From the NCBI GenBank assembly GCA_026003215.1, contig BPGV01000001.1, forward strand, positions 857,001 through 921,000: DNA of 64,000 bases, given 5' to 3'. A program made the position numbers and the translations under genes. The notes beneath the pieces are model-generated. The model was not told the origin of the DNA. It saw only the letters and a list, made by a program, of their open reading frames with translations, and searched no databases. Numbering within the stretch: position 1 is the first letter of the stretch; every line of letters begins with the position of its first letter. This document shows, piece by piece, positions 2,926 to 25,491 of this stretch. Source of the stretch: Bacteroidia bacterium. GTDB taxonomy: Bacteria > Bacteroidota > Bacteroidia > SpSt-205.

Positions 2926-3501
2926 TTATAGGAGTTGATTTAGCTGCAAAAATACGACGAGATACACCCACAATACATCCAGGGCATGCCAGAAAAGCCC
3001 AGTCAAGCGCAATCCCAGTCTATCCTCCGGCCGCACCTTGTACAGAATAGCCCGAAAAGTCCAGTACCCCACCGCTACAAGCCCCGCCACAAGATGCACC
3101 GCATGTAGCCCTGTAAAAACGTAAAAATAACTGACAGCTTTGTGGTTACCCGTCAAAAATAGCCCTTCTCGTACGAGCATCTGCCAGCCTATTAGTTGCC
3201 CAAGCAAAAAAACTACCCCTAACCCGAAGGTTATCATGAGCCCTACTTGGAGCTGGCGGTAGTTCCCGAGGGCAAATCCCCGCTGCGCCCGATAATAAGC
3301 TATACTACTGGAGAGAAGTACAGCTGTATTAGCCCAAAATATCGGCGGTATAGTAAAAGTTTTCCAAAACTCATGGAAACGCTGAACTAAGTAGGCACTC
3401 GTAAACCCCATAAAGAGCATCCCCATGCTCACGAGGTAGAGCCACAGGAGAAACTCTTTTGGGTGGAGACGGGCTGGAGCCTGTGTCATAAGAGTAGCCA
3501 T
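2926..3501 (-). CDS. second cytochrome c oxidase subunit III-like protein
   Basis: FTGLHAVHLVAGLV...GLFWHALDVLWVYLVVFLQL; paralogous to the downstream gene. Confidence 0.85.
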   Translation of the reverse strand: MATLMTQAPARLHPKEFLLWLYLVSMGMLFMGFTSAYLVQRFHEFWKTFTIPPIFWANTAVLLSSSIAYYRAQRGFALGNYRQLQVGLMITFGLGVVFLLGQLIGWQMLVREGLFLTGNHKAVSYFYVFTGLHAVHLVAGLVAVGYWTFRAILYKVRPEDRLGLRLTGLFWHALDVLWVYLVVFLQLNQLL

Positions 3502-4355
3502 ATACCCAAATAAAGAAAAGTAAGGTACGCCGTAAGAGCTAAAAGAAGGTATCGCAAATTTTTAGGGTTGGTACCATATACCCATCCCCCGCTGAGGAAA
3601 GCCACCGGAAGACCTATGCTAAAACTCCAAAGGCCCACTTGCCAGGGGAGGAACGGCCACAACGCCAAAGCCGCCACAGGCAGCGCCCATACCGAAAGCC
3701 ATAAGGCTAAGCGATTAGCTTGTGCTTTTTCGGGGGAAAAAGGTAAAAGACGAAATCCAGCCCGAGCATAGTCCCCCTGCGCTAAAAGCGCTATTACCCA
3801 GAAATGCGGAAACTGCCATACAAACTGAAGGACAAAAAGCGCCACTAAGACAGGCGATACCTCTGGGCGCACAGCCCAGTAGCCAATCACTGGGGGTAAT
3901 GCCCCTGGAAATGCCCCTACCAATACAGCAATGGGACCGTGTTTCTTGAGGGGGGTATAGGCCAATACATACAACGCCCAGGCCACCCCGCCTAAGAGCG
4001 CTACTTCCCACCGAACCAGCGATAGCATCCCTATCCCCACAACGAAGAGGGTAAGCGCCACTATTACCCCCTCCACAGGCGAGAGCAGGCCTGCTGGAAG
4101 AGGGCGGCTGCGGGTGCGTTCCATGAGTGCATCAGAGTCACGCTCCCAGATTTGATTCGCGGCATTGGCAGCGCCGGTAATCGCATACCCACCTAACGCC
4201 AGCCATAAAAGAGACATACCCTCAGACAAGCCCGCCACCAGCGCCCCCATCATAGCCGAAAAAACCACGACTAAGCTAAGCCTGGGCTTCGTAAGCTGCC
4301 AGTATAGCCCTATCCTATGCAGAAAGCTGAGGGATAGACTGAGGAGCGCCGTCAT
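3486..4355 (-). CDS. ctaB: protoheme IX farnesyltransferase
   Basis: UbiA-family; YWQLTKPRLSLVVVFSAMMG, NAANQIWERDSDALMERTRSRPLPAG. Confidence 0.95.
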   Translation of the reverse strand: MTALLSLSLSFLHRIGLYWQLTKPRLSLVVVFSAMMGALVAGLSEGMSLLWLALGGYAITGAANAANQIWERDSDALMERTRSRPLPAGLLSPVEGVIVALTLFVVGIGMLSLVRWEVALLGGVAWALYVLAYTPLKKHGPIAVLVGAFPGALPPVIGYWAVRPEVSPVLVALFVLQFVWQFPHFWVIALLAQGDYARAGFRLLPFSPEKAQANRLALWLSVWALPVAALALWPFLPWQVGLWSFSIGLPVAFLSGGWVYGTNPKNLRYLLLALTAYLTFLYLGIWLLL

Positions 4356-5286
4356 ACCGCGTATGTCTCAAAAAATACAACGAGATAAAACCGCTATTTA
4401 GCGCAAAAAGAGCCACTACCAAGTGAAGGACTTGCAAGACAGGAGAGAAAGAAAGATAAGCCATAGCTGCACCCGACAAAACTTGTACGACTAACGCTAA
4501 AAGCGTCCATAAAGCCCATCGCCGAGCGAAAGGTTGCCTTACAGGGTCCCGGAACACTCGCCACTGGTAATAGGCCCATCCCCCCAGCACAAACCACGAA
4601 AAACTTCTATGTATCAGGAAAACGATTTGGTCTGAGAGTAAATCCACACCTTCACGGCTGACCACCGCCCGCACAGAAGCCCCCAAAAGCACTTGTCCTA
4701 AGAGAAGGATCCAACTACCCCAGCCTAAAAGCTCATATACCCGCCATTCCGCTGAGAGGGGTCTCTCCTGGAGCAAAAAACTACGCGCCCACGCCAAAAG
4801 CACCGCTATCGTAAGCAGTACGCTAAAAAGCATATGTATAGTAATCATGTGTTGAGCCAAGTAGGTAGCCACCACCCGCCACCCCAGCAAGGCTTGTATA
4901 AGTAGGAGTGCGGGCACAGCTATTACCCACCTGAGGATGTCGGGCCGTCCCCGAAGGTACACCCCTGCGTATCCTACCATAGCCACGACGCCTATGCCAG
5001 CCAGCACGCTAACCATGCGGTTGAGATATTCGGCCCAGGTTTTGCGGGGGTCAAAAGGTTCAGCAAGCCGGCCGGCTACGGCATACCGCTCACGATAATC
5101 TGGGGGTAGTTGCGATTCGTGGGTAGGGGGGATGAGCTGCCCATAGCAGGTAGGCCAATCGGGACAACCCATCCCCGCCCCCAGAACCCGCACCGTCACC
5201 CCAGCCACTATCACCAGAAAAAAGAGCCCAAATACCCCCAGCGCTAACCGACGGAAGCGGAGCAGATGTCTCTGCTCGGCCGTCAT
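4315..5286 (-). CDS. ctaA: heme A synthase (COX15/CtaA)
   Basis: VTVRVLGAGMGCPDWPTCYGQLIPP, EYLNRMVSVLAG; 323 aa. Confidence 0.95.
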   Translation of the reverse strand: MTAEQRHLLRFRRLALGVFGLFFLVIVAGVTVRVLGAGMGCPDWPTCYGQLIPPTHESQLPPDYRERYAVAGRLAEPFDPRKTWAEYLNRMVSVLAGIGVVAMVGYAGVYLRGRPDILRWVIAVPALLLIQALLGWRVVATYLAQHMITIHMLFSVLLTIAVLLAWARSFLLQERPLSAEWRVYELLGWGSWILLLGQVLLGASVRAVVSREGVDLLSDQIVFLIHRSFSWFVLGGWAYYQWRVFRDPVRQPFARRWALWTLLALVVQVLSGAAMAYLSFSPVLQVLHLVVALFALNSGFISLYFLRHTRYDGAPQSIPQLSA

Positions 5287-7229
5287 GCGGTAGGAGCGTC
5301 CGGCTTATGGTTGGGCGAAAGGGCCGGCACCGGCGTAGGCTCGGGCGAGACCTTCGCCGCTTCCCCCTCCGAAGGCTCCTCCCTATCAATCACACTGAGC
5401 GGCTCAAAGTCATCTTCCCACCAGCGCACGCCCCGAGCGATGTCCTCATCAGAGATATATTGCGGGATGAAGTCGGCGGGTGCGCCCGGCTTAGAATAAT
5501 CATACGGCCACCGATACACCACAGGCAGTTTGCCTGGCCAGTTCCCATGAATATGCTTGACAGGGGAGCTCCACTCCAGCGTCGTGGCTTTCCACGGGTT
5601 ACGCGGGGCCGGCTTACCCCAAAACATACTGTGGAAAAAGTTATACACAAACAAAAGCTGCCCCGCTATCGTAACAAGCGCCGCTATGGTGATAAATACA
5701 TTCAGGTCTTGCCAGCTCTTCGTAAAATCAAACTCCGTGAAGGCATAGTAACGCCGAGGCACCCCACCAAAGCCCATGTAATACATCGGGAAAAACACCA
5801 AGTTCGCCCCAATGAAGGTAAGCCAGAAGTGAATGTACCCTAAACGGTTATTCATCATGCGGCCCCACAGCCGCGGGAACCAGTGATACGTACCCCCAAA
5901 CATGGCAAATACCGCCGACACGCCCATCACGAGGTGGAAGTGCCCTACTACAAAGTAGGTATTATGCAAGGGGATATCCAGAGGTGCTACCCCCAAGAAA
6001 AACCCAGTAAGCCCTCCACTGATAAAGAACGAGACCGTCCCAATTGCAAAAAGCATCGGCACCGTAAGGTGTATCCGTCCCTTCCACAGGGTAAAGATGT
6101 AGTTGAAGATTTTCATCGCAGACGGAATAGCCACGAGAAGCGTAGTAGCGGTGAAGATAGAGCCTAAAAGGGGATTCATGCCCGAGACAAACATGTGGTG
6201 CGCCCATACAATAAAAGACACAAAGGCAATCCCCAAAATGGAATACACCATCACCTTGTACCCGAAGATAGGCTTGCGCGCATGCGTGCTTATCAGCTCA
6301 GAGGTGATACCCAGCGCCGGTAGGAGCACAATATACACCTCGGGATGCCCTAAAAACCAGAAGAGATGGAGATATAGGAGGGGATTTCCCCCTTGTTGAG
6401 GTAGCGCTTGGCCAGCAATATAAATGTCAGAGAGGTAGAAGCTTGTCCCCAAGCTATGGTCAAAAAGTAGGAGGATGAAAGCGGCTACGGCCGGCGGGAA
6501 GCTCAGAAGCCCCAGTATCGCCACCGTAAAGAGCGCCCATACCACGAGCGGCATACGCATGAGGGACATGCCCTTTGTGCGCATGTTGAGTACAGTGGTG
6601 ATATAGTTAAGACCACCCATGAGCACGCCGACTACAAAGAGCACCAGCGCAATAATCCACAACACCATACCCAAGCCTGAACCCGGCATGGCCTGAGGCA
6701 GCGCACTGAGGGGAGGGTATACCGTCCAGCCCGCCGCCGCTGGCCCCGTCTCCACAAAAAACGACGCAAAAAGCACCACCGTCCCCCAGAAGAAAAAGTG
6801 AAAAGAAAGCATATTTAAAAACGGCGACGCCATGTCTCGGGCGCCAATCTGTAGCGGTATGAGGAGGTTCGCAAAGGTGCCACTCAGGCCGCCCGTCAGC
6901 AGCCAAAAGACCAAGATAGTGCCGTGCATCGTCACCAGCGCCATGTAAAAGTTCGGGTCTAAGCGGCCCTCCGGCGCCCACTTCCCTAATATCGTCTCTA
7001 AAAACGGGAAGCTTTTATCCGGAAAAGCCAGCTGGAGACGGAATATCGCCGAAAGCAATATCCCTATGAACCCCGCTACAAAGCCGGTGATGAGAAACTG
7101 CTTAGCGATCGTTTTGTGGTCCTGGCTAAAAATGTACTTCGTCCAGAAGGTTTCTTTATGATGGCCGTGGTCATGCGCATGTTCGTCGGCATGAGCCACC
7201 GCCGCTACGGTCATTTCATGCGTGGCCAT
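5283..7229 (-). CDS. ctaD: cytochrome c oxidase subunit I
   Basis: 648 aa; FWFLGHPEVYIVLLPALGITSELI, VWAHHMFVSGMNP, NTYFVVGHFHLVMG. Confidence 0.98.
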   Translation of the reverse strand: MATHEMTVAAVAHADEHAHDHGHHKETFWTKYIFSQDHKTIAKQFLITGFVAGFIGILLSAIFRLQLAFPDKSFPFLETILGKWAPEGRLDPNFYMALVTMHGTILVFWLLTGGLSGTFANLLIPLQIGARDMASPFLNMLSFHFFFWGTVVLFASFFVETGPAAAGWTVYPPLSALPQAMPGSGLGMVLWIIALVLFVVGVLMGGLNYITTVLNMRTKGMSLMRMPLVVWALFTVAILGLLSFPPAVAAFILLLFDHSLGTSFYLSDIYIAGQALPQQGGNPLLYLHLFWFLGHPEVYIVLLPALGITSELISTHARKPIFGYKVMVYSILGIAFVSFIVWAHHMFVSGMNPLLGSIFTATTLLVAIPSAMKIFNYIFTLWKGRIHLTVPMLFAIGTVSFFISGGLTGFFLGVAPLDIPLHNTYFVVGHFHLVMGVSAVFAMFGGTYHWFPRLWGRMMNNRLGYIHFWLTFIGANLVFFPMYYMGFGGVPRRYYAFTEFDFTKSWQDLNVFITIAALVTIAGQLLFVYNFFHSMFWGKPAPRNPWKATTLEWSSPVKHIHGNWPGKLPVVYRWPYDYSKPGAPADFIPQYISDEDIARGVRWWEDDFEPLSVIDREEPSEGEAAKVSPEPTPVPALSPNHKPDAPTA

Positions 7230-8526: not shown

Positions 8527-8922
8527 ATGGCTTTCCACCTCTCCTCTTCTATCCATACCCCAGAAGTGCTTGTAGATGAAGAAAAGTCCCTCTTCGTGCT
8601 GCGCGGGGCTTGTTTTCCAGAAGACAGCGTGGAGTTTTTCCAGCCTATCCGAGAGTTTTTTGCAGCACACATAGATAAGCTACGCACCACTCCCTTAGAA
8701 GTTCATATAGAACTCCAATACATCAACTCTTCCAGCCAACGCGAGCTCTACCGGCTTTTATATGAGTTTTTACAACAAAACGGTCAGACTCACTTGTACA
8801 TTTATCAAGGAGATGACGACCAAGAGCTTGAAGATCTACGGCATGTGGTTTTTGGACTGGAACAGCTCTCAGGTGTAAAGATTACTTACCGAGAAGGTTT
8901 TTACCATTCATCGGTGTCGTAA
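8527..8922 (+). CDS. SiaC/DUF1987-family regulatory protein
   Basis: MAFHLSSSIHTPEVLVDEEKSLFVLRGACFPEDSVEFFQPI...; start at 8527 supported by TAACCTTG 6 nt upstream. Confidence 0.7.
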   Translation: MAFHLSSSIHTPEVLVDEEKSLFVLRGACFPEDSVEFFQPIREFFAAHIDKLRTTPLEVHIELQYINSSSQRELYRLLYEFLQQNGQTHLYIYQGDDDQELEDLRHVVFGLEQLSGVKITYREGFYHSSVS

Positions 8923-10200
8923 GAAACGCTTCCATGTAAAAGGAAGGGAAGGCCGGCCCTTGTACAACCACCCTACGGAGGCCCCCTCTATGGTGACGCG
9001 TTCGTAAGGGGCCTGAGCGGGGAAGGGCTGGCCAGCCAGATAAGCGGGAAAAGCTTCTCGGGGAAGGGCACGCTCGGGAAAACCTACCAGAGGCCGGCTC
9101 AAAAGCGCTGCAGCCTGCGCGGGCCGACTATGCTCCCAGAGAGGATGGGCCTCCCAAGCTTCCTTCCAAAGGGGAGCCGGTACCAAAGCCGCCGCCCCTT
9201 CCATAAGCCCCTGTAGGCTTTCTCCGCGCTCTATGGCAATAAGCCCCTCGGGCAAGGGAATAGGTACCTTACCCGCCCGAGGAAACTCGCCTGTGGGCAC
9301 TTTCCGCTTAGCCCTGGCCAAGGCCCCCTCTCGGCGACGCCACGCCGACACAAAAAACCCTTCTCCCGGTCCCCGATGCGGATAAAAGTAATATCCCACC
9401 GCTGGCCCTTCTGTGGGGACGACCGCCGAAGGCAGCTCCCCCGGCCAAAGTACCGCCTCCCATGCGGGGTCAGCCGCTATCACGGCGAGGATATTCTCCT
9501 CATTTTCTGCAGGAGCGAAGGTACAGGTAGAATAGAGGAGCACCCCCCCCGGCGCCACTAAGGCCTTAGCTGCGTGGAGGAGGCTGCGTTGAAGGCGAGC
9601 CATACGCGTACTGAGGTCGGGGTGCCACTGGCAGGCGGCACGCGGGTCCTTTCGCCAAAGCCCCTCTCCCGAACAGGGCGCATCCAACACCACCACATCA
9701 AAAAGCCCCGGGAATCGCTCTGCCCACCAAGCCGGATGCCTACCCGTAACCAGGTAAGCGGGGATGCCCCAGCGAGCTAAGTTTTCTTTTAGCGCGGTTC
9801 GTCGGCGAGGGTCCGGGTCATTTGCAATCAGGAGGCCGCCTTCCCAGCCCAGCTCGCCTAAAAGGAGGGTGGCTTTGCCGCCCGGGGCTGCACTTAGGTC
9901 TATCACCCGCAGGGGCCGCCGCTCCGGCACAAACACCCGCAGGCTCATCCCCGAAGCCTCCTGCACATAGTAGGCCCCCGCATGCCAAAAGGGTTCCTGT
10001 TCAAAGTCCGGCCGCTCCGCCAGGAGCCGCCCCAGCGGATGCCAAACCACCCGCTCCGCTTCCGGAAAAAGCGCTCTCCCCTTTTCCGGGTGAAGCCGCA
10101 GCGCCGTACGTGAGGGCTGGCTTAGCGCTGCCAAAAAAGCTTCGGCCTCGGCCCCCAGCCGTGCCCGCATCCGCTCCACAAACGCCGGGGGCCACCTCAC
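8908..10200 (-). CDS. RsmF/NOL1-NOP2-sun family rRNA (cytosine-C5) methyltransferase
   Basis: VIDLSAAPGGKATLLLGEL, VVLDAPCSGEGLWRKDP, LLYSTCTFAPAENE motifs. Confidence 0.92.
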   Translation of the reverse strand: MRWPPAFVERMRARLGAEAEAFLAALSQPSRTALRLHPEKGRALFPEAERVVWHPLGRLLAERPDFEQEPFWHAGAYYVQEASGMSLRVFVPERRPLRVIDLSAAPGGKATLLLGELGWEGGLLIANDPDPRRRTALKENLARWGIPAYLVTGRHPAWWAERFPGLFDVVVLDAPCSGEGLWRKDPRAACQWHPDLSTRMARLQRSLLHAAKALVAPGGVLLYSTCTFAPAENEENILAVIAADPAWEAVLWPGELPSAVVPTEGPAVGYYFYPHRGPGEGFFVSAWRRREGALARAKRKVPTGEFPRAGKVPIPLPEGLIAIERGESLQGLMEGAAALVPAPLWKEAWEAHPLWEHSRPAQAAALLSRPLVGFPERALPREAFPAYLAGQPFPAQAPYERVTIEGASVGWLYKGRPSLPFTWKRFLRHR

Positions 10201-11621
10201 CGAAAGTCAAACGAAAAATAGCTTTGACGGCCCTGCGCATCCACCCCCTGGATTACGATACGTCCCCGCACACGCGTCAGCAGCTCCTCCAGCTCCTGCG
10301 GCGTCTCGGGTAGATAGTTATTGATGCTCAGGATGACAAAGCCCTCCGTGAGCCCCAAGCGGCTAAGCAGGCCTCCACCCCGCAGGTTCTGTACTCGGAA
10401 GCCCCGTTCTACCCCTAAGGTTTGCGCCTCGCGCGCAGAGAGCGGCACAATATCGGCGCCCAGTTTTTCAGAATGGTAGGTGGTACGGCGCAGAAGCACC
10501 GGCTCCCCTTCTTCGTTCGTGAGGGTAGCGGTGGTCTCGTAAATGCGGCCCGCGCGCTTGTAGGTAATCTTGACCTTGTCGCCGGGGCGATGCTGGGCCA
10601 GCCGCTCAAAGAGTTCGGCTTGCGTCTGCACCGGTATCCCGTCTATGGCTAAGAGGTGGTCCCCTGCTTTGAGGCCGGCCTTAGCGGCAGCCCCGCCCGG
10701 TATCACTCGTCCCACATACAACCCCTCCAGCTCCTCCGCCGAAAGCCCCGTATTCGGCTCCTCCGTAAAATCCGACACCTCCACATCTAAGAACGCCCGC
10801 TGCACCATCCCATACTGCCTCAGGTCCTCCACCACCTTCCGCACAATATTGACCGGTATCGCAAACCCATACCCCACATACGAACCCGTACGAGAGGCTA
10901 TCGCCGTATTGATGCCCACGAGCTGCCCTTTGAGATTGACCAACGCCCCCCCGCTATTGCCGGGATTGATAGCGGCGTCCGTCTGCAAAAACGACTCCAA
11001 GGGGAGCGGCCCTTGCATAAGATTAAGGTTACGGCCCCGCGCGCTGATAATCCCCGCCGTCACCGTGTAGGTGAGGTTGTACGGATTGCCAATAGCGAGC
11101 ACCCACTCGCCAATCTGCACTGAGTCGGAGTTAGCTAAGGGGAGCGGCGGAAGGCCTGTGGCTTTTACCTTGAGAAGGGCTATATCTACGCCGGCGTCGG
11201 CCCCCACCAGCTCCGCCGGTAAGGTGCGCTTGTCGGGAAAGGTCACTAAAATGCGGTTAGCGTCCCGCACCACATGAAAGTTGGTCACGATGTAGCCGTC
11301 GCTGCTCCACACCACGCCCGAACCCGCACTGTAGACGGGCTGGCTGCGGGGCATCCATAGCCCCCAGAAGCTCCAGAACTCATCGCCGGCGACCCTTTCA
11401 CCAAACGCCCGAATGAACACCACGGAAGGCGTGGCCTTGCGTGCCGCCTCCACAAACTCCGACGAAGCCGGCCCCCCCGGCCACCCTACCCCCCGCATCG
11501 GCACCAAAACCATTTGCGCAGAGGCAGAGCCCCCACCCCGCCCCATTACCCAATACCCCACCGCTCCCCCTAACCCCCCCGCCACAAACGTTAGGAGCAC
11601 CCACCAGAGGACCTTACGCAT
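10197..11621 (-). CDS. HtrA/DegP-like trypsin-like serine protease with PDZ domains
   Basis: SGVVWSSDGYIVTNFHVV, DIALLKV, TDAAINPGNSGGALVNLKGQLVGINTAIAS; two PDZ-like regions. Start revised to ATG 11621; the ORF-track start is the TTG inside the promoter box. Confidence 0.93.
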   Translation of the reverse strand: MRKVLWWVLLTFVAGGLGGAVGYWVMGRGGGSASAQMVLVPMRGVGWPGGPASSEFVEAARKATPSVVFIRAFGERVAGDEFWSFWGLWMPRSQPVYSAGSGVVWSSDGYIVTNFHVVRDANRILVTFPDKRTLPAELVGADAGVDIALLKVKATGLPPLPLANSDSVQIGEWVLAIGNPYNLTYTVTAGIISARGRNLNLMQGPLPLESFLQTDAAINPGNSGGALVNLKGQLVGINTAIASRTGSYVGYGFAIPVNIVRKVVEDLRQYGMVQRAFLDVEVSDFTEEPNTGLSAEELEGLYVGRVIPGGAAAKAGLKAGDHLLAIDGIPVQTQAELFERLAQHRPGDKVKITYKRAGRIYETTATLTNEEGEPVLLRRTTYHSEKLGADIVPLSAREAQTLGVERGFRVQNLRGGGLLSRLGLTEGFVILSINNYLPETPQELEELLTRVRGRIVIQGVDAQGRQSYFSFDFR

Positions 11622-19818: not shown

Positions 19819-20637
19819 ATGAATGAACTCGCCCTCACGCCCTACTTAGACAAAGTCATTTGCGGGGATGCTTTACAAGTTTTGAGCGAGCTGCCGGACG
19901 AATGCATCGACTTAGGCATTACCTCGCCGCCGTACAATAAAAAACACAAGCATGGCGGTTGGCTTGTGCCCAAAGTGGTGTATAAAGGAGCCACCGACGT
20001 CCTGCCCGAAGAAGCCTACCAAGCCTGGCAAATCCAAGTGCTCAACGAACTCTACCGCATTACAAAAGAAGGAGGCAGCTTTTTTTACAACCACAAAGTG
20101 CGCTACGAAAACGGAAAAATGTTCCACCCCATAGAGTGGCTCCTGAAAACTAAGTGGACCGTATGGCAAGAGATTATATGGCATAGGCGTATTGCGGGCA
20201 ATATCCGGGGGTGGCGCTTTTGGCAGGTAGAAGAGCGCATCTACTGGCTGGTCAAGGGCAAACCCACAGAACTCAAGCCCCAACACGCCAAGCTCACTTC
20301 GGTATGGGAGATACGTCCCGAGCGTGCCCACAAGGACCATCCGGCGGTCTTTCCCCTTGAGCTACCTACTCGTATCATCTACGCTATCCTGGAAGACAGG
20401 CCGGGCACCGTGATAGACCCTTTTTGCGGGACAGGCACCACGCTCGTGGCCGCTAAACTCTTAGACAAAAACTATGTAGGCATAGAGATTTCGCCCGAGT
20501 ATGTCGCATACGCTGAGCAAAGGCTCGCCCAAGCCCACACCGAAAAAGCCACGGTACACAAAGAGATAGCCCTGCACAGCGTAGAACTTACCTTTCGAGA
20601 GAGAAAGGCCCGCGGCTATTGGGCAGAAAAAAGGTAG
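19819..20637 (+). CDS. site-specific DNA methyltransferase (N4-cytosine/N6-adenine class), apparently orphan
   Basis: Motif IV TSPPYN, motif I DPFCGTGTTLVAAKLLDKNYVGIEISPEYVAYAEQRL; no restriction endonuclease-like ORF adjacent. Confidence 0.92.
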   Translation: MNELALTPYLDKVICGDALQVLSELPDECIDLGITSPPYNKKHKHGGWLVPKVVYKGATDVLPEEAYQAWQIQVLNELYRITKEGGSFFYNHKVRYENGKMFHPIEWLLKTKWTVWQEIIWHRRIAGNIRGWRFWQVEERIYWLVKGKPTELKPQHAKLTSVWEIRPERAHKDHPAVFPLELPTRIIYAILEDRPGTVIDPFCGTGTTLVAAKLLDKNYVGIEISPEYVAYAEQRLAQAHTEKATVHKEIALHSVELTFRERKARGYWAEKR

Positions 20638-20669: not shown

Positions 20670-22442
20670 ATGCACCGTTATTTAGTAGGGATAGGGCTTG
20701 TCTGGGCCCAAGGCTTACAAAGTGCCTTTGTTGGAGGCGTAACCGCTACCACAGCTCGCCTACAAATCCTTGGCCCCGCTAACGCCTCCGTACAAGTGGA
20801 GCTTAGCCCCACGCCTTCTTTTGCAGGGGCCTCTACGCAAACGGTCACGTTAGGTACAGCGGGCTTCGGCCGAGCTAACTTTTCGGGCCTCCAAGCCTAC
20901 ACCCGCTACTACTGGCGCGTCTATCGCCCCGGTATAGACACCCTCACAGGCAGCTTCCGTACCCTACCGCCCGACACCTTCAAAGGCTACCTGAAGTTTG
21001 CCTTTGGCTCCTGCCAAGCATTTGGCTACACGCCCCCCACAGCTGAACCCATTTTCCGGGTCATGGCCCAAGATACCCCGCTGCTTTTTCTGCAATGCGG
21101 AGACTGGGGCTACCCCGATTTGCGTTATGAGCGCCTACCGCAGGATAGTGTCGCTTTCGCCCAGTGGTGGGATACTATCGCAGCCGCTTACACGGCTCGG
21201 TATAGCAGCTCAGACATACGGCGCGTATTTCAAGTTTCGGCCGTGGATTATGTCTATGATGACCACGACTACATAGCCGACAATGCTTCTGGCTCTACGA
21301 TGCCCTATATCAGTGACACGTTGATACGGGAGTTTCGGTTTGTCCCCTACGCCCGCCGCAATATCATTGCGGCGTATGACAGCCTTTTCCCCCACTATCC
21401 ACTCGTAGATACCACCCAAGGGATATATCACCGCATTCGGTTTGCCAATGTGGAGATTTTTGTGTGCGATAATCGTTCCAGCCGTTCGCCGAGTCTAAAT
21501 GCGCTTCAGTGGCGAGGCGATACCGCCTTTGTGGTGTATCCGCCTGCGCACTCTATGTTGGGGAGCGCACAACTGCAGTGGCTTTTGGATGGCCTGCGCA
21601 CCTCCACTGCCACCTGGAAGTTTGTTATTACAGGGGTAGCTTTCAATAAAGGCTATCGCCAGGTGCTCCAAGCTCTGTCGGGCAACTATACCTTGCAACA
21701 GTGTAGGCTGCCCGGCTTAGGTGACGGCGCTATGCTATTAGCCGGCTTATTAGACACTTGGGCAGGATATGCACCTGAGCAAGATTCTATCTTGGCTTTT
21801 TGTCAGCGCCACGGCATTCAAAATGTGATATGGCTTTCCAGCGATTCCCATACTTCGGCCATGGATGATGGCACCAACGCCGGCTTTCCAGAGATTATGG
21901 CAGGGAACCTTCGCCAGCAAAACTCCCAGCTGGCCTGGCTCATGGCCAACGCCGACCAGCTCCTCCCCGCCATCTGCCCCCAAGCCAACTTCAGCCAGAA
22001 CTTCTCCGTATGGAACGCTGGGGGACAGGGCCTTGGCAATAGCAACTTCAACGACGCCTACGGACGCATAGAGGTCTTTGGCGATGACTCTGTACGCCTC
22101 TCGCTTGTGGATGCAAATGGCCAAGGGATTGCCTCGCTGACCTTACGCCCAGGAGGAGCTGCAGGGCTTATCCGTACCCATCCCCTCCCCTCCGACCGCT
22201 TCCGCATAGGCCCCTCACCCACCCGCAGCACACTCAACGTCTTTATTGATCCTACCCTCCTCCCCGAACCTGCCGAACTCTACCTCACCAACCTCATGGG
22301 ACAGGTCATAGAAAAACGCATTGTCTCCGCCCAAGAAAAAAATCCCCTTCTCTTGCGGGGAGACTCGCTCTCCCCCGGCTTGTACTTCGTGGTGCTCTAT
22401 ACCCACCAAGGGCCCTTTGTACGCAGCTTTGTAAAAGAGTAG
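20670..22442 (+). CDS. PhoD-like alkaline phosphatase/phosphodiesterase with T9SS C-terminal sorting domain
   Basis: FGSCQAFGY, DYVYDDHDYIADNASG, IWLSSDSHTSAMDD; C-term FRIGPSPTRSTLNVFIDP...LSPGLYFVVLYT. Start 20670 after TATCTTTG. Confidence 0.88.
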   Translation: MHRYLVGIGLVWAQGLQSAFVGGVTATTARLQILGPANASVQVELSPTPSFAGASTQTVTLGTAGFGRANFSGLQAYTRYYWRVYRPGIDTLTGSFRTLPPDTFKGYLKFAFGSCQAFGYTPPTAEPIFRVMAQDTPLLFLQCGDWGYPDLRYERLPQDSVAFAQWWDTIAAAYTARYSSSDIRRVFQVSAVDYVYDDHDYIADNASGSTMPYISDTLIREFRFVPYARRNIIAAYDSLFPHYPLVDTTQGIYHRIRFANVEIFVCDNRSSRSPSLNALQWRGDTAFVVYPPAHSMLGSAQLQWLLDGLRTSTATWKFVITGVAFNKGYRQVLQALSGNYTLQQCRLPGLGDGAMLLAGLLDTWAGYAPEQDSILAFCQRHGIQNVIWLSSDSHTSAMDDGTNAGFPEIMAGNLRQQNSQLAWLMANADQLLPAICPQANFSQNFSVWNAGGQGLGNSNFNDAYGRIEVFGDDSVRLSLVDANGQGIASLTLRPGGAAGLIRTHPLPSDRFRIGPSPTRSTLNVFIDPTLLPEPAELYLTNLMGQVIEKRIVSAQEKNPLLLRGDSLSPGLYFVVLYTHQGPFVRSFVKE

Positions 22443-22483
22443 GGAAACGATGTTTCCCAAAATACTGTTACCTTAGTGCCAAT

Positions 22484-22915
22484 ATGAGTACCTGGCGCAA
22501 CTGGTTGCGTACCCTCCTGCCTTGGGCAGAAAAGTCTGCTACGCAGCCAACTTTTTCTTCTTCTCCTACCAGAGGAGACTCTGGGATTACGGGGCCAGCC
22601 GTTATGGAGCCCGCGTACCCCTCCTCCGAAGCCCTTTGGAATACCTTACCGCCCCAAATACCCCTCTTGCCCATCAAGCAGTGGACTATACAAAATATCT
22701 CCCCTTATGCGTGGGACCGGGCGATGATTCGCACCATTACTTTACTTCAAAAGGAAAAAATAGCGCTTCCGGAGGTCCTCCAGCCTTCGCCGCAAACTCG
22801 CGTGCCGGCCTCGGTAGCTAAGGCTATCCTTCTGGCCCTCAAGGACATGTACGGAATAGAACCAGCCGCTATCCTTCAGACTATTCGCACCGCCATACCT
22901 ACAAACTTCTTCTAA
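22484..22915 (+). CDS. uncharacterised 143-aa protein, first gene of V4R cassette
   Basis: Intact ORF, TACCTTAG box 7 nt upstream, 3 nt from next gene; no family recognised. Confidence 0.65.
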   Translation: MSTWRNWLRTLLPWAEKSATQPTFSSSPTRGDSGITGPAVMEPAYPSSEALWNTLPPQIPLLPIKQWTIQNISPYAWDRAMIRTITLLQKEKIALPEVLQPSPQTRVPASVAKAILLALKDMYGIEPAAILQTIRTAIPTNFF

Positions 22916-22918
22916 GCT

Positions 22919-24181
22919 ATGGTTCAGCAGATAGCCGTCGCTTTTCAACCGAATCTGCGTCGGGGTTCAGTAGTCTTGGGCGGTGAGCCGCATGTGGTGC
23001 ACTGCCACTATTACAACCACTTCTTGCAAACCAGTATTGAAGACGCCGAGAGCCTTTATCCCGTTGAAGAGGTGCTGGTATGGACGGCCCAGGAGATTGG
23101 GCATAGTCTTTTTCGGCGCCTTTTTGCCGAGCAAGGGGTACATACCGCCGAGCAGCGCAAGGCCTGGGTTGAAGCTGTGTACAGCACCTGCGGGTTTGGC
23201 AAGGTGAGCCTACAAAACCTCTCGGCAGAAGGCGGAGAGGTACGCACGCCGTACGAGCATTACGCCTACACGTATGCGGCGACCTTCCCCCCTCGGCCTA
23301 AGGGCAAAAGGGGGGTAGCGTACTTCTCCCAGGGCTACTTGGCGGGGGCCATAGAGGCGATTTACGACCTTCCGCTGGGGAGTATCGGGAGCGAGCAGAT
23401 CGCTTGCCTCACCCAGGGCGACCCCGAAGTAGCCTGGCGCTTCTATCGGCTCAGTACGCCTTTGCCCCTCCAACCCTCCGTAGGAGAAGGGCAACCCGAA
23501 GAAGGCGACCTCTTCCAACCCCCTAATACGCGGGTTCCCATGGCCCAGATACGCGACGCTGTATTGGGCCTACCCCTTACCCCAGATCCTGAGACCGGCC
23601 TCATAGAAGCGTTTGGCGTAGTGCTGACCCGCCTGCCAGGGAACTATTACAGCCTCATCTCTGAAAGGCACCTCGCCCGCATGGAGGCCTTGATTGGCCC
23701 TGAAGCGCGCCTCCTCGTGCTCGACATGCTGATTGAGTCCGGCCATGTATGCGCCTTCAACACCTTAGGGGGCATTATGCAAAGTGCCGAGTGGGATGCG
23801 GTGGTTCGCCCCTACTTGGATACGCCGGAGGATTGGATCTACGGTATAGCGGCTTGCTTGCCCGCTATCGGCTGGGGCCTCGTGCAGTGCACCCATACCC
23901 CTTCCCCACAAGCTTGCCAAGTCACCCTTACAAACTGGTACGAAAGCACCGCCATTGCTGCCCTCCGATCCCACACGCTGGACCACTCGCCTTTCGCTCG
24001 GGGGCTCTTCGCCGGGGTTCTGGCGCTGATTTATACTGCGGGCATACATAAAGAACGTTTGACCTTTGATGGGCAGCTGTACCGAAAGCTCTTTCAAGAA
24101 AAGCGCACCTACACCGGGGAGTTTATCCAAAGCCGCCTACGAGGAGAAGCCTCAGATACCGTACGCATGCAGGCCGCCTGA
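22919..24181 (+). CDS. tandem V4R-domain (4-vinyl-reductase/hydrocarbon-binding-like) protein without DNA-binding domain
   Basis: Domain 1: GFGKVSLQNLSAEGGEVRTPYEHYAY...YFSQGYLAGAIEAIYDLPLGSIGSEQIACLTQGDPEVAWRFY matches the V4R pattern (GyLaG...EtkClakGdpyCeF); domain 2: IGWGLVQCTHTPSPQACQVTLTNWYES...FARGLFAGVLALIY. Confidence 0.7.
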   Translation: MVQQIAVAFQPNLRRGSVVLGGEPHVVHCHYYNHFLQTSIEDAESLYPVEEVLVWTAQEIGHSLFRRLFAEQGVHTAEQRKAWVEAVYSTCGFGKVSLQNLSAEGGEVRTPYEHYAYTYAATFPPRPKGKRGVAYFSQGYLAGAIEAIYDLPLGSIGSEQIACLTQGDPEVAWRFYRLSTPLPLQPSVGEGQPEEGDLFQPPNTRVPMAQIRDAVLGLPLTPDPETGLIEAFGVVLTRLPGNYYSLISERHLARMEALIGPEARLLVLDMLIESGHVCAFNTLGGIMQSAEWDAVVRPYLDTPEDWIYGIAACLPAIGWGLVQCTHTPSPQACQVTLTNWYESTAIAALRSHTLDHSPFARGLFAGVLALIYTAGIHKERLTFDGQLYRKLFQEKRTYTGEFIQSRLRGEASDTVRMQAA

Positions 24182-24183
24182 GT

Positions 24184-24483
24184 ATGGCCGAGCCGCCCCT
24201 GCACATCCAGCAGCTCCAGGTCTGCGCCTGGCGCATCAAGTACCTTGTGGCGCTCCCCACCCCCCTCGAAAGCCAAGAATGGCAAAGGCTCCAAGGGGCT
24301 TGGCCGGGCAGCCGATTGGACATTATACCCGTAGGAGAGGGCCTCTTGTATAAGCTGACCCTCCCCGAACGCTTAGGCACCATCACAGGCAGCACCGCTT
24401 CGGCGGAGCTCTACGCCGTACTCGCCCGACAAGAAGCCCGACAGCTCTTAACCCAACTCCAAGAGGTCCTACACCATCTATAA
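24184..24483 (+). CDS. uncharacterised 99-aa protein, third gene of V4R cassette
   Basis: Intact ORF 2 nt after V4R gene stop; same strand; no family recognised. Confidence 0.6.
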   Translation: MAEPPLHIQQLQVCAWRIKYLVALPTPLESQEWQRLQGAWPGSRLDIIPVGEGLLYKLTLPERLGTITGSTASAELYAVLARQEARQLLTQLQEVLHHL

Positions 24484-24510
24484 AAAAACGGGGGCTCTCT
24501 GTGAGCCCCC
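24482..24510 (-). terminator. Rho-independent terminator for the minus-strand T9SS gene
   Basis: On minus strand GGGGGCTC-acaga-GAGCCCCC then gTTTTTTT; 32 nt past the stop at 24542. Confidence 0.85.
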
Positions 24511-24541
24511 AGGTAGAAACCGACCTTCCTCTCCGCGTAGG

Positions 24542-25444
24542 TTACTCTACTATGACGAGCTTGTGGCTGAGGCGCCCCTCCGCGCTCTCGGCTATGACGG
24601 TGTATAAGCCTGCCGGCAGGCGCAAGAGGTGGCGATACTCCCCAGCAGCGTAGGTAGCGCTATGACGATACGCTTCCCGGCCGTCGGCCGTCATCACCCG
24701 CAGGGTGAGCGTAGTAGCCTGCACCAACCGGAAGGACACCGCCGCCTCTCCATACGCGGGATTAGGCGCTATGGTAAAGCTCGCTACTGAAGGCAGCACC
24801 GAGGCAATGCCTGTGGCGGGAGGATTATTGGTCACCACCACTACATATCTGAAGACAGTATCTAACCACGCATTTTGCCCCAAGAGCTGCGGCGTAAGGT
24901 TAGTCGTGTCTTTATTGGGGCCATCCCCTAAGCCAGGAATAAAAGCACGTACTTTTACCCTGAGCGTATCGGACCCTTCAGTCGCCCCCGCCTTAATACA
25001 CACACGAGCACAACCTATCGGTGATGTAGCTCCTTGGGTACCCCCAGGGTTTTGATATACAACAAAGTTAGCTTTCCTATTTGGGTCGGTGGGATCGTAC
25101 TGCTTGTAGCGATGCATTTGGTCAAAGTGAATAGCCCCCTGAGTGGGATCGGTGGTGTTATAGGCAAACGGTTGACCATTTTGTTGGGTAATCCGGCCAC
25201 TATCCAGCCTGAGGCTATCTACCCAAATGGCATAGTTGGGACTAAGCAGAAAACCTCCCTGGCGTACCGTATCCGGGAAAGTAAAATAGATCACCAACGA
25301 AGTATCTACCCCAGGACGGACATACAAAATCGCCGGATTGAACCCATAAGGGGTCGGACTTTGATTAGCATTGGGTGTACACTGTGTACACTGGGCATAA
25401 AGAGAAACGCCCCAAACCGCTGTGAGCAATACTACGTACCGCAT
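24542..25444 (-). CDS. secreted protein with T9SS C-terminal sorting domain
   Basis: Signal peptide MRYVVLLTAVWGVSLYAQ; C-term FTIAPNPAYGEAAVSFRLVQ...LLRLPAGLYTVIAESAEGRLSHKLVIVE; start after TATATTTG. Confidence 0.8.
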   Translation of the reverse strand: MRYVVLLTAVWGVSLYAQCTQCTPNANQSPTPYGFNPAILYVRPGVDTSLVIYFTFPDTVRQGGFLLSPNYAIWVDSLRLDSGRITQQNGQPFAYNTTDPTQGAIHFDQMHRYKQYDPTDPNRKANFVVYQNPGGTQGATSPIGCARVCIKAGATEGSDTLRVKVRAFIPGLGDGPNKDTTNLTPQLLGQNAWLDTVFRYVVVVTNNPPATGIASVLPSVASFTIAPNPAYGEAAVSFRLVQATTLTLRVMTADGREAYRHSATYAAGEYRHLLRLPAGLYTVIAESAEGRLSHKLVIVE

Positions 25445-25451
25445 ATCCAGA

Positions 25452-25459
25452 CAAATATA
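25452..25459 (-). promoter_or_regulatory. -7 element TATATTTG of T9SS gene
   Basis: 7 nt to ATG 25444. Confidence 0.7.
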
Positions 25460-25491
25460 CAACCCTTTAGGCAAATGCAAGGGGAGCGTAG

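Follow-up and report, generated by a model that had tools for sequence, protein, structure and literature searches.

A cassette of a tandem V4R protein and two small partners probably encodes an undescribed, widely shared sensor-type complex

Results

A compact three-gene cassette in a Bacteroidia genome

We analysed a 64,000-nucleotide stretch of DNA (hereafter the window) from a Bacteroidia bacterium whose genome consists of one 2.27-Mb contig. Its named genus relatives are SKY*/SKW*/KatS3mg metagenome genomes, whose names suggest hot-spring samples, so that the host is probably a hot-spring bacterium. An earlier note on this DNA had described a compact same-strand cassette of three genes behind a promoter-like box, and the coordinates of the open reading frames (ORFs) agree with that description:

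22469-22476, plus strand: promoter box TACCTTAG, of the Bacteroidota type TAnnTTTG, 7 nt upstream of the gene-1 start
22484-22915, plus strand: gene 1, 143 aa (ORF list)
22919-24181, plus strand: gene 2, 420 aa, predicted tandem V4R/Bet3-fold protein (ORF list)
24184-24483, plus strand: gene 3, 99 aa (ORF list)

The intergenic gaps measure 3 nt (GCT, genes 1 and 2) and 2 nt (GT, genes 2 and 3). A TAnnTTnG box stands 4-7 nt 5' of the gene-1 start codon in nine of the ten genus loci (the exception is L016). This conserved placement, and not the number of boxes, which is at chance level in the window (106 versus 111 expected), supports the promoter reading of TACCTTAG; a sigma-70 promoter scan gave no match. 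With the box so near the start codon in these nine loci, the cassette mRNA is likely to be leaderless or to carry a short leader.

Between the window and genus locus L015, dN was 0.50, 0.18 and 0.42 for genes 1, 2 and 3, respectively, with dS near saturation (1.8-2.3); all three genes are conserved in the genus and, by this comparison, evolve under purifying selection. Pfam and NCBIfam searches with the three window proteins returned zero matches even at E = 1.

Other features of the window were recorded. A perfect inverted repeat, GGGAAAC/GTTTCCC (22442-22458), directly follows the stop codon of the upstream gene, ahead of the promoter box, and was not seen in the other genus loci compared. 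Directly 3' of gene 3, a terminator-like hairpin with a minus-strand T-run (24489-24511) would more plausibly terminate the convergent minus-strand gene at 24542-25480 than the cassette. A 272-aa ORF at 19819-20637, with a TSPPYN motif, is probably a DNA methyltransferase, as judged by eye.

Gene 2 is predicted to hold two V4R/Bet3-fold domains

The AlphaFold model of gene 2, built with 46 homologues (pLDDT 96.9, pTM 0.94), was compared with the PDB using Foldseek. It matched TRAPPC3/Bet3, MopR, PoxR, MJ1460, Bet3-Trs33 and H-NOX, nearly all with a probability of 1.00, and the TM-score against MopR was 0.74 by target length. At the sequence level, a 46-sequence profile of the family found MJ1460 among the PDB sequences (E = 3.6e-5), where an earlier profile of 14 sequences had returned only noise. 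The Pfam V4R model is matched by 23 of the 46 family members at E = 0.1 or better, one cyanobacterial member exceeding the curated cut-off; the window protein has no match at E = 1. The model thus depicts gene 2 as two V4R/Bet3-fold domains in tandem, the fold on which the earlier note had staked its reading. Aligned with each other by hhalign (probability 97.2, E = 2.8e-11, 165 columns), the two halves are, as judged from their profiles, homologous:

22946-23458, plus strand: V4R half 1, approximately residues 10-180, with invariant H28-C29, Y32-N33 and H114-Y115 and near-invariant C163
23540-24178, plus strand: V4R half 2, approximately residues 208-420, with invariant C278 and near-invariant H276, the classical V4R Cys being lost

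Residues conserved in all 46 sequences include, besides these, G92, G94 and G139 in half 1 and T282, S289, W292, G320 and G362 in half 2, while C163 is found in 44 and H276 in 43. The earlier note had called the second half degenerate and devoid of the Cys. The Cys of the V4R 'C..GD' motif is indeed replaced there (SRLRGEASD), but the half has its own Cys, C278, invariant in 46 out of 46 sequences. The window's genus has lost the second of the classical V4R cysteines in half 1 as well as the one in half 2. The V4R metal-site pattern E-x2-C-x7-C, which lies at the C-terminus of the domain and is complete in the cyanobacterial half 1, is incomplete in the window protein, where half 1 retains one Cys of the pattern (Q160, C163) and half 2 none.

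The 420-aa protein is V4R throughout. No AAA+ or DNA-binding domain was found in its model, nor in genes 1 and 3 by Pfam and NCBIfam, and the earlier observation that the V4R protein has no DNA-binding or reductase partner held when tested. A BchJ-type 4-vinyl reductase identity was considered and dropped, since the pathway context is absent at the locus.

Two small gene families accompany the V4R gene across phyla

Of 59 related genomes, 13 carry gene 2, and precisely these 13 also carry gene 3, one copy each. As the gene-3 profile was trained partly on these genomes, what is informative is that gene 3 is missing from the remaining 46, and the 13 carriers, falling in only 4 genera, are not independent. 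The survey across phyla covered 74 V4R loci in which the V4R gene is flanked on either side by at least 900 nt, and partners were counted within 1.6 kb on the same strand. A gene-3-type gene was found in 60, a gene-1-type gene in 58 and both in 52, many of the profiles having been trained on loci counted among the 74. Loci outside the training set match as well (L056, L057, L060, L063, L064 and L069; E < 1e-17 with a model made from four other loci), and a gene-3-like ORF with the Cys motif lies below threshold in several of the misses (L149, L151, L161, L166, L167 and L213). Within these data sets, gene 3 and the core domain of gene 1 co-occur with gene 2 across phyla, and the two small genes, left unassigned in the earlier note, are conserved partners of the V4R gene. 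Neither outcome that the note had named as refuting its reading, a predicted fold other than V4R/Bet3 or V4R homologues that never adjoin the two small genes, occurred.

Homologues were detected in Bacteroidota, Cyanobacteria, Gammaproteobacteria (Thiotrichaceae, Chromatiales and Sedimenticola), Myxococcota, Acidobacteria, Calditrichota and Asgard archaea. Apart from Calditrichota, each of these groups also contains the three-gene set. The gene-2 family itself is rare: at most some per cent of the genomes sampled in each phylum carry it, and the weaker matches in the tally belong to other V4R proteins.

Halves 1 and 2 are encoded by separate adjacent genes in Asgard archaea, and so they are in some members of the cyanobacteria, myxobacteria, acidobacteria, Bacteroidota and Gammaproteobacteria. 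Gene 2 is therefore the single-chain equivalent of a V4R heterodimer. Five Asgard contigs (L208-L212) carry the V4R pair together with gene 3 and a protein of about 450 aa; gene 1 immediately precedes V4R1 in L209-L212, and L208 has a gene-1 profile match. The gene-2 tree places the window protein within a supported Bacteroidota clade (100/99) and the five Asgard pairs in a clade of their own; L043 and L213 are long branches. It settles neither the deep order nor the number of fusions (3 label changes).

Some genomes hold more than one form. A gammaproteobacterial locus (L154, genome G989) has a split V4R pair at 5862-6972 with an MglB-like protein and, about 2.5 kb away in the opposite orientation, a tandem V4R cassette at 8662-10727; genomes G450 and G926 likewise hold both forms. 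A member of the window's genus (L024, genome G008) has a second tandem-V4R copy with gene 1, for which no gene 3 was found in 783 nt of downstream sequence.

Gene 3 is a small protein with a single invariant cysteine

The AlphaFold model of gene 3 (pLDDT 96.0, pTM 0.87) has the order strand-strand-helix-four strands-helix and gave no significant match to PDB folds (best E = 0.07). Its sole invariant column is Cys14 (codon 24223-24225), found in 37 of 37 sequences from several phyla. The lineage-specific gene-3 families are related when compared with column-permuted controls (z of 7-12 for the main pairs and 3.3 for one pair), and the Asgard and split-type members match the Bacteroidota family with 97% probability (E = 5e-11).

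Gene 1 is a candidate adaptor

Gene 1 consists of an N-terminal amphipathic helix, a loose linker and a C-terminal core domain of about 70 residues:

22487-22525, plus strand: amphipathic basic helix STWRNWLRTLLPW at the N-terminus of gene 1 (hydrophobic moment)
22664-22873, plus strand: gene 1 core domain, approximately residues 61-130, homologous to the C-terminal domain of cyanobacterial and myxobacterial proteins in the gene-1 slot

Across ten genus members, the mean hydrophobic moment of the helix is 0.60, compared with 0.31 for permuted columns (p = 0.02). A basic amphipathic helix is also present, at the C-terminus instead, in the gene-1 proteins of Gammaproteobacteria (p = 0.0075) and of Asgard archaea (p = 0.02). 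The gammaproteobacterial helices, such as GFLGKIKSLFGG, resemble the membrane-targeting helix of MinD. In four other Bacteroidia the helix was not significant by column permutation (p = 0.32). Significance was taken from this permutation instead of a general lipid-helix factor, which did not discriminate the gene-1 helix from ordinary protein ends.

With hhalign, the core of gene 1 scored above permuted columns against both the cyanobacterial/myxobacterial (z = 5.1) and the gammaproteobacterial (z = 4.7) gene-1-slot proteins. The Asgard members act as a bridge: for the Asgard and split-type gene 1, the match to the cyanobacterial/myxobacterial core has 94.6% probability (E = 7e-8), and that to Bacteroidota gene 1 is weaker (z = 4.0). 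The tie of Bacteroidota gene 1 to the other gene-1 families is thus the weakest, with short alignments, and is supported by operon position. Together, these features suggest that gene 1 may act as an adaptor or membrane tether.

The gene-1 slot varies among relatives. In a Synechococcus MAG (L034), a roadblock-type gene-1 protein is tandemly duplicated (3127-3738 and 4267-4878, 84% identical) upstream of the V4R gene. In two Bacteroidota loci (L166:7327-7941, minus strand, and L167:695-1390) the slot is occupied by a 204-231-aa protein with an N-terminus that looks, by eye, like a winged helix and a C-terminal part whose relationship to gene 1 is tentative.

Tandem and split forms keep different company

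The neighbours of tandem-type loci, within the operon or beside it, are mostly signalling genes: PAS-SpoIIE (L035 and related loci), REC-LytTR (L040), REC with a weak roadblock match and an ODP diiron domain (L043), Crp (L046), kinase/receiver hybrids (L063, L158, L162 and L163), ParA with DUF4388 (L057) and REC-DUF4388 (L061). These operon neighbours vary between lineages, some loci having none; no signalling gene adjoins the cassette in the window, and the window's genus has no attached output gene. The earlier note had proposed a sensory or trafficking module, and the sensory half of that proposal, which we favour, fits the operon neighbours of the relatives.

In a Calditrichota locus (L043:2118-6179), a REC protein, a weak Roadblock match, an ODP diiron beta-lactamase-fold protein and a tandem V4R protein form a tight run in which neither gene 1 nor gene 3 was found.

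The neighbours of the split-type loci are the reason why a role in sulfur or Fe-S chemistry is the main rival to the sensor-type complex, although we regard it as rather unlikely. The V4R pair and the gene-3 Cys protein would take sulfur or electrons from a cysteine desulfurase and a ferredoxin to build or load a cofactor, and the tandem form would be the same machine without a dedicated desulfurase. Consistent with this, a cysteine desulfurase gene is adjacent to split loci of cyanobacterial (L148), myxobacterial (L150) and acidobacterial (L214) origin, and the Hermodarchaeota contig L213 has one on its opposite strand; in L148 and L213, gene 3 forms a fusion with two [4Fe-4S] motifs; and gene 3 has its invariant Cys and gene 2 its conserved His and Cys residues. 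However, neither desulfurase nor ferredoxin was found beside the tandem-type loci examined, the window's included; tandem loci have signalling genes as neighbours, and the desulfurases are of different classes (IscS-like in L148, TIGR01977-like in L150), which speaks against one fixed pathway.

The Hermodarchaeota contig has a further peculiarity: a third V4R-like protein of 153 aa (L213:3840-4301, minus strand; by eye, with a weak MetOD1 Pfam match) stands before gene 1 and the V4R pair, and the divergent desulfurase and the gene-3/ferredoxin fusion occupy the other strand.

Roadblock-type domains occur in some relatives

In cyanobacteria, myxobacteria and acidobacteria, the protein in the gene-1 slot has an N-terminal domain whose best four matches among 177,635 PDB sequences were MglB/MglC (E = 0.011-0.2). 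Roadblock proteins were also the top match of the N-terminal part of the Asgard protein of about 450 aa (E = 0.015), and the MglB-like protein of L154 lies beside the split pair. Such matches, individually weak, count by their ranking and recurrence. A roadblock relation of the myxobacterial F11 protein was not supported, the best matches of the PDB profile being ribosomal protein S6.

With gene 2 having TRAPPC3/Bet3 among its closest folds, these domains would accord with a TRAPP-like platform, in which a V4R heterodimer and a roadblock/longin-type subunit regulate an MglA/Ras-like GTPase in polarity or trafficking. The window genome, however, gave no Roadblock/LC7 (Robl_LC7) match at E = 1 and no Arf/MglA-type GTPase above the cut-off (best Arf-family score 14.6 bits versus 22.3), and the neighbour families that the locus scans listed, in one scan the 25 commonest, did not include a named GTPase. 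For want of both a roadblock protein and a small GTPase in the genome, a GTPase role is unlikely in this organism, and the trafficking half of the earlier proposal is not supported for it; such a role fits relatives with roadblock-type domains, and overall we give it little credence.

Discussion

We propose, with middling confidence, that the cassette encodes a sensor-type protein complex of a V4R pseudo-heterodimer, a Cys subunit and an adaptor. The best reading is a membrane-associated ligand- or redox-sensing scaffold, for which we infer the ligand, complex formation, membrane binding and the direction of signalling. The pseudo-heterodimer would hold a hydrophobic or redox-active ligand in a V4R pocket; a metal, thiol or redox site may be formed or protected by H28-C29 in half 1 and H276/C278 in half 2 together with the gene-3 Cys; and gene 1 would use its amphipathic end helix to anchor the complex to the membrane and would pass on the state of the complex. 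The recipient would be a signalling protein, for which the relatives offer same-operon candidates: a PAS-SpoIIE phosphatase, a histidine kinase/receiver, a LytTR or Crp regulator, or ParA with DUF4388. Since no output gene is attached in the window's genus, the output there would have to be elsewhere in the genome.

This proposal builds on the V4R fold, the homologous halves, the split pairs and the co-occurrence of the partners, on the variety of signalling genes adjoining in independent lineages, and on a basic amphipathic end helix of gene 1 in three lineages. Known V4R domains, such as those of MopR and PoxR, act as ligand sensors (PMC10933270). Against the proposal stand the window locus without a signalling neighbour, operon neighbours that differ between lineages, split-type loci in the company of cysteine desulfurase and ferredoxin rather than of signalling proteins, and a helix that is non-significant in four other Bacteroidia and by the lipid-helix factor.

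The V4R family PF02830, which comprises the aromatic sensors MopR, PoxR and DmpR as well as MJ1460, shares the fold and a sequence relation with the gene-2 family. Unlike these proteins, the V4R units described here are in tandem or paired, lack a DNA-binding or AAA+ domain and have two small dedicated partners; the Zn-type E-x2-C-x7-C site of PF02830 is incomplete in the window protein. The TRAPP core (Bet3/TRAPPC3 with Trs31/Trs33 and longin-type subunits) shares the V4R/Bet3 fold and the obligate pairing of different V4R units, which appears here as a tandem fusion and, in Asgard archaea and some bacteria, as separate adjacent genes. A TRAPP-like roadblock/longin-type partner is found in only some relatives, whereas in the window genome neither a roadblock/longin protein nor a small GTPase was found. 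We know of no TRAPP counterpart of gene 1 or gene 3. Because defining features of both classes were tested and not found, we place the module among the V4R systems as a form of its own, outside both TRAPP and the MopR class. MglB/conservon-type modules resemble some relatives in having a roadblock-type domain beside signalling proteins, but the module described here has a V4R core, and no GTPase was found in the window genome.

The Slr0144/Slr0147 and BBAG systems also encode two V4R proteins together (PMC10151467, PMC13326532). That the cassette is a tetrapyrrole- or bilin-handling V4R pair of this kind is very improbable: those clusters, too, combine the pair with an Fe-S protein (PMC10151467), as does the split cyanobacterial locus L148 with its [4Fe-4S] protein, but the other V4R proteins of the cyanobacterial and gammaproteobacterial carrier genomes L077, L079 and L084 score at most 21 bits with the half profiles, against which the split pairs reach 84-283, which marks the families as distinct, and no globin or bilin reductase was found among the neighbours scanned. 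By profile score, the V4R clades thus differ; genes 1 and 3 are not reported in the Slr0144/BBAG clusters, none of the globin, Fe-S protein and bilin reductase of those clusters is among the window's three genes, and an Fe-S protein stands near one split-type locus here.

An Asgard TRAPPC3 has already been described (PMC10933270). For the module itself, searches combining V4R with roadblock, ParA/DUF4388, longin, cysteine desulfurase or Asgard found no published description, within a literature from which subscription papers were mostly absent. We consider the set probably an undescribed, widely shared sensor-type complex.

Two families without a Pfam or NCBIfam match accompany a tandem V4R protein through several bacterial phyla and Asgard archaea, and the module bears on a question in the origin of TRAPP, namely how V4R dimers came to work together with roadblock/longin proteins in the first place. 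The small, probably thermostable bacterial versions lend themselves to direct tests of ligand, metal content and partner binding. It is conceivable, though we rate it as improbable, that the module descends from an ancient prokaryotic TRAPP-like assembly of Asgard archaea and bacteria, with an obligate V4R heterodimer (fused here), two small new subunits and often a roadblock/longin-type partner. If so, the V4R and roadblock combination of TRAPP would have existed outside eukaryotes as a signalling or redox-sensing machine.
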